From positions 1 through 64,000 of the forward strand of contig NZ_JAUSFI010000110.1 of NCBI RefSeq assembly GCF_030651495.1: 64,000 nt of DNA. The letters run 5' to 3'. The notes below the pieces were generated by a model that saw nothing but the letters and a program-made list of their open reading frames with translations, was not told the DNA's origin and did not search any database. Source of the stretch: Undibacterium sp. (GTDB taxonomy: Bacteria > Pseudomonadota > Gammaproteobacteria > Burkholderiales > Burkholderiaceae_D). The translations under genes and the position numbers were made by a program. Of the stretch, positions 28,866 through 31,562 are shown piece by piece (the first letter of the stretch is position 1; each line of letters opens with the position of its first letter).

Positions 28866-29378
28866 ATGAAGCGTTTACCTTTGTTATTCAGTTTTTTTAT
28901 GTTTATTTTAATGTGTATGTCCCTCAGTTATTGGGGGATGCAAGTGTTTAAGCCTAAGGTGCGAGCGGTAGTTGCCCCTGTTATTTTTGCCGCATTTGAG
29001 CCGGGCATCGGGCAGTGGGGAGCTGTTTTTGGACGAAGTCCGATTACTCAGATTGCGGCGAGCAACTATCAATTGAAAGGTGTGATCGTTGCAGCTAAAC
29101 AAGGCGATAGCGCCGCAATTTTGAGTGTGGATGGCAAGCCAGAGCAAACTATGGCTATCGATAAAGAGTTGTCTAAAGGTGTTACATTAAAAGAAGTTCA
29201 TGAAACATATATTCTTATCTCTGAATCAGGAATATCTAAACGTGTAGATTTACCTCAAACGAGTTCATTGCCGGCATCGGTTCCAATTGTGCCAGCCAAA
29301 AAATATGCTGCGTCTTCTACAAACCCAATAATGCCAACCGCACCTGTTTCATCTGCTGCGTCGGATAATTCACGCTAA
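28866..29378 (+). CDS. gspC: Type II secretion protein GspC, short form without PDZ domain
   Basis: A 170-residue bitopic protein: a hydrophobic helix near the N-terminus, then a homology-region-like domain (ITQIAASNYQLKGVIVAAKQ through SESGISKRVDLP) and a Ser/Pro/Ala-rich tail. Canonical GspC is about 270 residues and ends in a PDZ or coiled-coil domain; here there is none. GspC joins the inner platform to the secretin N0 domain and helps choose substrates. Its place at the end of the operon, after gspF, is unlike the usual first position. An AAGGA ribosome-binding site precedes the ATG. Confidence 0.85.
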   Translation: MKRLPLLFSFFMFILMCMSLSYWGMQVFKPKVRAVVAPVIFAAFEPGIGQWGAVFGRSPITQIAASNYQLKGVIVAAKQGDSAAILSVDGKPEQTMAIDKELSKGVTLKEVHETYILISESGISKRVDLPQTSSLPASVPIVPAKKYAASSTNPIMPTAPVSSAASDNSR

Positions 29379-29383
29379 CATCT

Positions 29384-30208
29384 ATGAGAAACAGGCAAGC
29401 AACGGTACCGCAATTTCCTGATGTAATACAGAAAGCATTAAAGTCGGTACATATTTCTTGGCTGCCAGTGTTGATTGATGGATTGAACGCGATGTATGTC
29501 GCTGATCCAACATACTTAGACAGTTTGATAGACGGGCATTTTTTACCAGAAAATGGGCGAATGTTTGCGGCATTTTCGATTCCGATCAATCAGGTGCGAT
29601 ATGTGTTGATTGGAGAGGGTCCGTATCCTAGGGCTGCGAGTGCGACGGGTGTTTCTTTTATGGATGGCGCCGTGAACGAGTTATGGTCCAATGAAACACA
29701 TGGAGGCTTGTCAAAAAAAGTGAATCGTGCAACTTCGCTGCGTAATTTTATTAAAATGTTGCTGGTTGCCGATGGACTTCTTGACGTAAATAACACCACA
29801 AATTCTGCGATGATCTCAGTATCGTCATTTGCACGTCAGGCAGATTCCGGCTTGATAAAGAGTTTGTCTGAGTTGCAGTCAAATTTAATCTTACATGGTT
29901 TTTTATTGTTGAATGCAACTCTTGTCTATCGGCTAGAAGTCGCGCCCCGTCGCGATGCCAAAGCATGGCAACCGTTTCTACAGGTGATTTTTTCTGCATT
30001 AAATGATCATCAGAAAACGATTGATGGAAAATCGGTTATATTATTGCTTTGGGGTAAGGTTGCAGAACTTTTAAAGCAAATTCCGGCAATTGATTATTTC
30101 TCGTCTATTTTGGCTGAACATCCCTATAATTTATCGTTTATAGCGAATAAAGCGATGCAGTCTTTTTTCTCTCCGTTGCACTTAATGCGCAAACAAAAAA
30201 AACGTTAA
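29384..30208 (+). CDS. Uracil-DNA-glycosylase-fold protein with altered catalytic motif
   Basis: A 274-residue protein that aligns along most of its length with family-1 uracil-DNA glycosylase (UNG). VRYVLIGEGPYP (residues 71-82) sits where UNG has the water-activating loop GQDPYH. GVSF (89-92), GFLLLNATL (172-180, Asn177), VILLLWGK and EHPYNLSF (His246) follow in the UNG order. The catalytic Asp of GQDPYH is Gly79 and the His is Pro82, while the uracil-pocket Tyr81, Phe92, Asn177 and the late His246 remain. Ordinary UNG chemistry is therefore unlikely. The gene starts 6 bp after gspC and appears to be the last member of the gsp transcript. Its role is unknown. Confidence 0.75.
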   Translation: MRNRQATVPQFPDVIQKALKSVHISWLPVLIDGLNAMYVADPTYLDSLIDGHFLPENGRMFAAFSIPINQVRYVLIGEGPYPRAASATGVSFMDGAVNELWSNETHGGLSKKVNRATSLRNFIKMLLVADGLLDVNNTTNSAMISVSSFARQADSGLIKSLSELQSNLILHGFLLLNATLVYRLEVAPRRDAKAWQPFLQVIFSALNDHQKTIDGKSVILLLWGKVAELLKQIPAIDYFSSILAEHPYNLSFIANKAMQSFFSPLHLMRKQKKR

Positions 30209-30320: not shown

Positions 30321-31562
30321 ATGTTAAAAAAAATTAATGTTAAGCAGTTAAGAATTGGTATGTATATTCAGGAACTATGCAGTTCTTGGATGGATTCGCC
30401 ATTTTGGCAAAAATCTTTCATGCTTGAGAATCAGGCGAGTCTTGATAAAGTCAATGGAAGTAAGATACAGGAGGTCTGGATAGATACCAACAAGGGGCTG
30501 GATACGGTTATAGATAGGATTGTTATCGATACCCCTTCAAAGCCAGAGGAAAAATTAGTGCCTGTCGTAAAAATTCCAATGTTATTTAAGGATATTCCTC
30601 CCGTATCGATGGATGAGGAGATGGTGCGTGCCGTCAATATTGTTGACAACTCTAAGCAGGCGGTTTTTTCGATGTTTAATGAAGCCAGAATGGGAAACGC
30701 AGTAGATGCAGAAAAAGCGATGCCATTAGTTGAGGAAATTGCCTCCTCAGTGATGCGCAACCCGGGCGCGTTAATAGGTCTGGCAAGATTAAAAACGGCT
30801 GATGACTACACCTATATGCATTCTGTTGCCGTCTGCGCGTTGATGATTGCCTTGTCTAGACAGCTCGGCCTTGACGATGATAAAACTCGCGAAGCTGGTT
30901 TGGCAGGCTTGTTACACGATATCGGTAAAATGGCTGTGGATTTGGATATCTTAAACAAACCAGGAAAGCTTACTGATGCTGAATTCGTTTCGGTTAAGGA
31001 GCATCCCGCAGCAGGTCACAGAATGTTATTGGAAGCAAATGGAGTTGGTGAGATTGCCCTTGACGTTTGCTTGCATCATCATGAAAAAATGGATGGCAGC
31101 GGTTACCCAGATCGTTTATCTGGTGATCAAATTAGTCTTTATGCGCGAATGGGGGCTGTTTGTGATGTTTATGATGCGATTACCTCAAATCGCCCATACA
31201 AACAGGGTTGGTGTCCAGCAGAGTCATTGCGTAAGATGTCAGAATGGAGCAAAGGGCACTTCGATGAGGCTGTATTTCAGGCTTTTGTGATGAGTATTGG
31301 CATTTATCCTGTTGGAACTCTTGTTCGCCTTCAATCCGGTAGGTTGGGTGTCGTTATTGAGCAGCAAGTCGGAAAATCATTAATGTCGCCTAAAGTAAGA
31401 GTATTTTTCTCTACCAAATCTTCAACATATATCACTCCTGAATTACTCGATCTTGCGGGGCCCGGTTTACAGGACAAAATCGTTATGCGAGAGGATGCGA
31501 ACAAATGGGATTTGAAAGACATTAACCGGTTTTGGTTGGGCGACGCAGTAAACCCAACTTAA
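30321..31562 (+). CDS. HD-GYP cyclic-di-GMP phosphodiesterase with DUF3391 N-terminus
   Basis: A 413-residue cytoplasmic protein. Residues 1-130 match DUF3391 (INVKQLRIGMYIQEL...). The HD-GYP domain (about 140-330) has an intact metal site: H199-D200 in LLHDIGKM, HHHEKMDGSG and GYP at 261-263, then DAITSNRPYK. HD-GYP enzymes hydrolyse c-di-GMP to GMP or pGpG and so influence biofilm, motility and secretion. It follows the secretion operon after a 112-bp gap. A regulatory link to the T2SS is possible but only inferred. Confidence 0.92.
   Translation: MLKKINVKQLRIGMYIQELCSSWMDSPFWQKSFMLENQASLDKVNGSKIQEVWIDTNKGLDTVIDRIVIDTPSKPEEKLVPVVKIPMLFKDIPPVSMDEEMVRAVNIVDNSKQAVFSMFNEARMGNAVDAEKAMPLVEEIASSVMRNPGALIGLARLKTADDYTYMHSVAVCALMIALSRQLGLDDDKTREAGLAGLLHDIGKMAVDLDILNKPGKLTDAEFVSVKEHPAAGHRMLLEANGVGEIALDVCLHHHEKMDGSGYPDRLSGDQISLYARMGAVCDVYDAITSNRPYKQGWCPAESLRKMSEWSKGHFDEAVFQAFVMSIGIYPVGTLVRLQSGRLGVVIEQQVGKSLMSPKVRVFFSTKSSTYITPELLDLAGPGLQDKIVMREDANKWDLKDINRFWLGDAVNPT

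Follow-up and report, generated by a model that had tools for sequence, protein, structure and literature searches.

Positions 29384 to 30208 of the window, the 64,000-nucleotide stretch of Undibacterium sp. DNA that was analysed, encode a protein resembling uracil-DNA glycosylases (UDGs) in which the catalytic Asp of motif 1 is replaced. The Asp of GQDPY belongs to the textbook catalytic machinery, and canonical UNG without its Asp is several orders of magnitude less active. The question raised by this locus is whether the protein is a pseudo-enzyme, a protein-protein adaptor or an enzyme with changed chemistry, all of which had been suggested in an earlier note, and whether its position behind gspC ties it to type II secretion.

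Sequence, fold and relationship to known UDG families

The gene and its direct neighbours are:

28866..29378, plus strand: gspC (Pfam T2SSC, E 1.6e-9), a lineage-specific neighbour 5 bases upstream
29384..30208, plus strand: ORF with ATG start, CDS of the GEGPYP uracil-DNA-glycosylase-like protein of 274 aa
30321..31562, plus strand: downstream gene for a protein with DUF3391 and an HD domain (Pfam)

The UDG fold proposed for this protein was confirmed by sequence and by structure comparison. Its nearest solved proteins by sequence are PDB 5x3g (E 1.8e-39, residues 19-271) and 5x3h (E 4.4e-38), titled as wild-type UNG and Y81G mutant UNG of Nitratifractor salsuginis, followed by 2zhx with E 1.1e-7. 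A profile search returned 5x3g/5x3h with E 3.4e-57. The protein was modelled with AlphaFold2 from a five-sequence alignment (mean pLDDT 76.6, pTM 0.78) and Foldseek placed the predicted fold closest to 5x3h/5x3g (probability 1.00, TM 0.73-0.83), with other UNGs next. In this model the active-site loop, residues 80-97, falls below a pLDDT of 50, and the geometry of Glu78 is thus not readable. Scores with family models were low, namely 20.6 bits with Pfam UDG (cut-off 24.3), E 3.2e-13 to 4.7e-6 with the NCBIfam ung models at scores far under their cut-offs, and 48.9 bits with the curated ung model TIGR00628 (cut-off 185.75).

Nitratifractor salsuginis UNG has the same fold and a mean identity of about 41% to both groups of homologues described below, and it shares the PYPR...SA.G loop, the LLLN stretch and the EHPYN motif 2. 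The homologue from Legionella adelaidensis shares 41.3% identity with the 5x3g stretch. Whole-protein kinship, PYPR loop and EHPYN motif place the window protein with the Nitratifractor-type branch, but the doublet differs, being Gln-Asp in N. salsuginis (GQDPYPR) and Glu-Gly here. The N. salsuginis enzyme was described in 2017 in FEBS J. It is an active UNG and is not known to be inhibited by Ugi. With family-1 UNG, represented by E. coli UNG, the protein shares the UDG fold and the pocket of motif-1 Tyr, Phe, Asn and leaving-group His, the loop being placed with low confidence in the model. In contrast to family 1, GQDPYH is changed to GEGPYP, so that the GQDPY motif with its catalytic Asp is absent, and HPSPLS is changed to HPYNLS.

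The Glu-Gly doublet and the motif-2 His are found in family-4 UDGs (UDGa), whose motif 1 is given as GE(A/G)PG (PMC10359453). Unlike these, the window protein lacks the 4Fe-4S cysteines; there is no cysteine among its 274 aa and hence no 4Fe-4S cluster. It has Tyr81 where family 4 has Gly, and TIGR00758 was not among the five NCBIfam families listed for it at E up to 10. UdgX, a covalent uracil-DNA binder with the motif GEQPG, likewise has a Glu at the equivalent motif-1 position, but its KRRIH loop, GEQPG motif and Fe-S cysteines are missing from the window protein.

Distribution and conservation of the active site

Matches at E 0.001 or better were found in 175 of 195 genomes of the window's family, its own genome included; the family is taken here to be Oxalobacteraceae and the class Gammaproteobacteria. 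In the order sample, 13 of 399 genomes matched, all belonging to the window's family. The class sample gave 25 matches in 369 genomes (the window's genome, one canonical UNG in G633 and 23 others), and the phylum sample six in 398, of which four belong to the window's family, one is a canonical UNG (G983) and the last is G969. A further homologue, on a Legionella adelaidensis plasmid record, bears the label 'uracil-DNA glycosylase family protein'. The genomes G003 and G194 each contain two matches to the window protein, one of them possibly a second copy.

An origin from phages or plasmids was considered and rejected. Two viral-contig scans contained no relative, phage matches were distant and the plasmid records yielded three matches. 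Thirteen Flavobacterium phage records carry a distant relative of about 25% identity, and the copy of FPSV-S29 (L157) is annotated as uracil-DNA glycosylase. Plasmid records of the actinomycetes Embleya and Nonomuraea (L158:1426-3048 and L159) encode proteins with an N-terminal UDG-like domain that has GQNPYPR, i.e. Asn for Asp. In the L158 protein this domain is followed by one for ADP-ribosyltransferase (Pfam ART, E 1e-9), and Pfam UDG did not match the protein at E 0.001.

Conservation was assessed on 106 homologues, taken from 77 of the 175 family genomes, four loci (L001-L004) and 25 further sources (23 genomes of the class sample, G969 and Legionella adelaidensis), among which genomes and named loci may partly represent the same species. 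The residues concerned are:

29612..29629, plus strand: motif 1, G77-E-G-P-Y-P82, with E78 in 106/106 homologues and Gly (81/81) or Ser (25/25) as residue 79
29615-29620, plus strand: the E78-G79 doublet inside motif 1
29657..29659, plus strand: Phe92, at the position of the Phe which we take to stack on uracil as in family-1 UNG, in 106/106
29912..29914, plus strand: Asn177 in LLLN, the uracil-recognition Asn, in 106/106; this role is described for E. coli N123 (PMC5387724)
30116..30130, plus strand: motif 2, E245-H-P-Y-N249, with the leaving-group His246; H246, P247, Y248 and N249 in 106/106, E245 in 104/106

Motif 1 occurs in two forms and no third, GEGPYPR in 81 Oxalobacteraceae-type sequences and GESPYPR in 25. 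Mean identity is 60% within the GEGPYP group, 48% within the GESPYP group and 43% between them. Position 79 is the sole site that is fixed in each group and yet different between them. Of the 274 positions, 38 are strictly invariant, ten of them within residues 77-92, and this set includes G77, E78, P80, Y81, P82, R83, F92, N177, W195 and H246, the latter being the only invariant His. Tyr81, Phe92, Asn177 and His246 were thus present where the earlier note had placed them and did not vary. Met93 and Arg183 are fixed in the GEGPYP group (81/81 each) and Trp101 in both groups, and all three are unlike 5x3g.

The catalytic Asp had been described as lost. Gly79 does replace it, but 'lost' holds only relative to canonical UNG, as the doublet is fixed in 81/81 sequences. 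Recent decay is ruled out by the identical motif throughout the GEGPYP group. The replacement of His by Pro82, which the earlier note had also pointed out, is no sign of inactivity and carries little weight because 5x3g (GQDPYPR) and six of seven outgroup rows have Pro at this position of GQDPYH as well, and these relatives carry Asp or Asn.

A quick tree of 72 rows, with 39 of the 81 GEGPYP and all 25 GESPYP sequences, placed 5x3g inside the GESPYP group and joined to G969, a position subject to a long-branch warning. When G969 and three outgroup rows were omitted, 5x3g stood at the base of the GEGPYP group with a support of 75, and a tree uniting all GE[G/S]PYP rows reached a better likelihood and could not be rejected (p-AU 0.74). 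The Gln-Asp of 5x3g may be ancestral or a reversion.

Gene neighbourhood and co-occurrence with canonical UNG

The gene starts just after gspC, with 5 bases between the gspC stop (29378) and 29384. It had been regarded as the last gene of a type II secretion operon, but this position is not established, since the DUF3391/HD-domain gene, encoded in the same direction, starts downstream at 30321. gspC lies directly upstream in 14 of the 81 GEGPYP loci, namely in all 11 sampled genomes of the same genus as well as in G042, L003 and L004, and a match to the HD-domain gene is found downstream in all 14. No gspC match was detected beside the gene in the other 67 GEGPYP loci and no gsp match in any of the 25 GESPYP loci, with a flank of only about 1.5 kb at some of the surveyed loci. 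The homologues therefore do not always follow gspC, an outcome that the earlier note had counted against its own reading, and the constant linkage to gsp genes expected of a type II secretion component was not seen.

The frequent neighbour is uvrB. In 45 of the 81 GEGPYP loci it lies upstream in the same orientation and ends within 300 bases of the gene, in two more (L001 and G088) it ends within 1.4 kb, and in four it is the next gene downstream on the opposite strand. In 13 loci downstream matches to iscR/iscS are the only ones, and three have none of gspC, uvrB and iscR/iscS. uvrB and iscS were named with NCBIfam on one representative each and then traced with tblastn; iscR and the aminotransferase mentioned below were named from reading the sequences only. 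In the GESPYP group, ubiG follows the gene in seven of 25 loci (NCBIfam; also annotated in the Legionella record).

In three genomes of the same genus uvrB lies elsewhere, about 52 kb away in G085, and no iscR, iscS or UDG match was found in the approx. 1.5 kb alongside uvrB. An aminotransferase that adjoins uvrB in other genera is retained in two of these three genomes and in the window's genome, where uvrB sits at a contig end with only one side visible. As uvrB of the same genus is found elsewhere without a UDG-like gene beside it, the gspC neighbourhood is most simply explained by a relocation in a limited group, probably in this direction and without a role in secretion. Since different genes again flank the GESPYP loci, none of the contexts can be called the oldest. 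The tie between a DNA-repair fold and secretion genes is not supported by these counts (gspC in 14/81 and 0/25 loci vs uvrB in 45/81).

Canonical UNG was scored as present when a protein exceeded the TIGR00628 cut-off. In the class comparison, from which 20 unmatched genomes were left out, UNG was present in none of 24 GESPYP genomes vs 19 of 52 others (Fisher p 0.0003); the remaining 33 of the 52 have neither UNG nor a GESPYP protein. UNG is patchy in general, with 21 of 195 family genomes and 38 of 150 order genomes. Within the family, it was found in 17 of 175 genomes with the GEGPYP gene, which thus hold both proteins, vs four of 20 without, a difference that is not significant (p 0.24). 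Ten family genomes of at least 90% completeness have neither. The 21 UNG carriers of the family are confined to three genera, with 12 of 12 sampled genomes in g6, 8 of 11 in g40 and 1 of 12 in g19. In these genera, the four genomes without the GEGPYP gene (G072, G106, G133 and G171) all carry UNG, which hints at replacement, although the cases are few and g6 is UNG-positive regardless. The overall pattern is supportive of a stand-in role, but not decisive.

No UNG exceeds the cut-off in the window's genome, whose completeness is 95.3 and contamination 8.5, so that certain contigs may be foreign. This genome encodes three further PF03167 proteins, one being a DNA-deoxyinosine glycosylase over its cut-off with 172.3 bits and the other two being family-4-like and under the NCBIfam cut-offs. 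The protein at L048 (C172:4049-4498) is family-4-like with the odd motif VGENSLDEG and 117.5 bits (cut-off 125.3). At L047 (C7:7524-7973), a UDG-superfamily protein with GQAPGKKVHETGLPF and a weak family-4 score is encoded.

Catalytic role and alternative explanations

The Glu-Gly doublet is known from active enzymes. According to the available passages of Xia et al. (PMC5387724), Glu41-Gly42 of T. thermophilus UDGa is catalytically competent; E41Q costs about three and G42D about two orders of magnitude of activity, while the double swap to Gln-Asp is only 5-fold under wild type. Glu-Gly of family 4 and Gln-Asp of family 1 are named correlated doublets there. The scaffold of this mutagenesis is a family-4 and not a family-1-type enzyme, and the passages do not cover Glu-Ser. 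The motif-2 His is described as the main catalyst and most sensitive residue of family 4, with the Asn N89 placing the water (PMC5387724); no counterpart of N89 conserved in both groups was evident in residues 178-195. For UdgX, activation of the nucleophile or of a water has been reported for the equivalent motif-1 residue, Glu52 (PMC10359453).

Literature searches, which left most subscription papers outside, returned no activity data for GE[G/S]PYP proteins by motif strings and Xia et al. alone for the QD doublet together with uracil. Uracil-DNA glycosylase combined with Oxalobacteraceae gave only three titles, on tick, frog-skin and wheat-grain microbes.

The protein is probably a functional family-1-type UDG of the Nitratifractor branch with Gln-Asp exchanged for Glu-Gly, its catalysis being inferred. 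The doublet would have been exchanged as a unit, to Glu-Ser in the GESPYP group. A flipped uracil would enter an intact pocket in which Tyr81 would exclude thymine, Phe92 would stack on the base and Asn177 would read N3/O4. Hydrogen bonds to uracil O2 from His246 and from the backbone of residue 78 would stabilise the departing uracilate as the bond breaks in an SN1-like manner, so that excision would be driven by His246 together with a re-tuned O2 contact at residue 78. The water attacking C1' may be positioned by Glu78 as the leading candidate, or by another group, without an Asp. In vivo, the GE[G/S]PYP proteins would serve base excision repair in general, in many cases where the genome lacks canonical UNG, and might be able to stand in for that enzyme. 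Of the three possibilities in the earlier note, changed chemistry is therefore favoured, because the Asp is replaced jointly with its neighbour, Glu-Gly occurs in competent family-4 UDGs and the pocket is invariant in 106/106 homologues; the pseudo-enzyme and the secretion adaptor are disfavoured.

An unlikely alternative is a non-catalytic binder of uracil-DNA or abasic sites that reads uracil, leaves the bond uncut and either flags the damage or brings in other repair factors, UvrB for example. The Asp is gone while the base-reading residues stay, and the linkage to uvrB would suit a hand-over. However, His246, the counterpart of which is the most sensitive catalytic residue of family 4 (PMC5387724), is invariant; the joint difference at the Asp site and its neighbour yields a doublet of active enzymes, and the absence of UNG from 24/24 GESPYP genomes tested suits a replaced activity better than binding. 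Less probable still is an active glycosylase that prefers a substrate other than plain U:A or U:G DNA, e.g. another damaged base or single-stranded or modified DNA. Certain branches of the superfamily do work on other bases (PMC5387724), and Met93, Arg183 and Trp101 set the proteins apart from 5x3g. The invariant Tyr81, Phe92 and Asn177 argue against it, as they line the family-1 uracil pocket.

It is highly improbable that type II secretion has taken up the protein as a protein-protein adaptor. The gap to gspC is 5 bases in the window and the arrangement is consistent in all 11 sampled genomes of the genus, with the HD-domain gene match downstream each time, but gspC matches are missing elsewhere (67/81 and 25/25 loci, some with the short flanks), the three genomes with uvrB apart from the gene fit a relocation, and such a role gives no reason for an invariant base pocket. 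The analysis has thus made a little-recognised UDG variant more likely and a secretion-tied pseudo-enzyme less likely.

Returning to the glycosylase reading, it is conceivable, and proposed here only tentatively, that the GE[G/S]PYP proteins constitute a family of their own within the UDG superfamily, with a family-1-type scaffold, a natural lack of the Asp, the family-4 doublet and Glu78 or a new group for the water, which would be a principal UDG in most Oxalobacteraceae and in some UNG-less Gammaproteobacteria. The large and strongly conserved Asp-less set with a coupled family-4 doublet offers a natural experiment on the change of an active site as a unit. The correlated-doublet hypothesis (PMC5387724) becomes directly testable in a family-1-type scaffold. 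Concerning annotation, the Legionella adelaidensis copy already carries a uracil-DNA glycosylase family label, but UNG models score GE[G/S]PYP proteins under their cut-offs, and genomes may therefore appear to lack UNG although that is not necessarily so.
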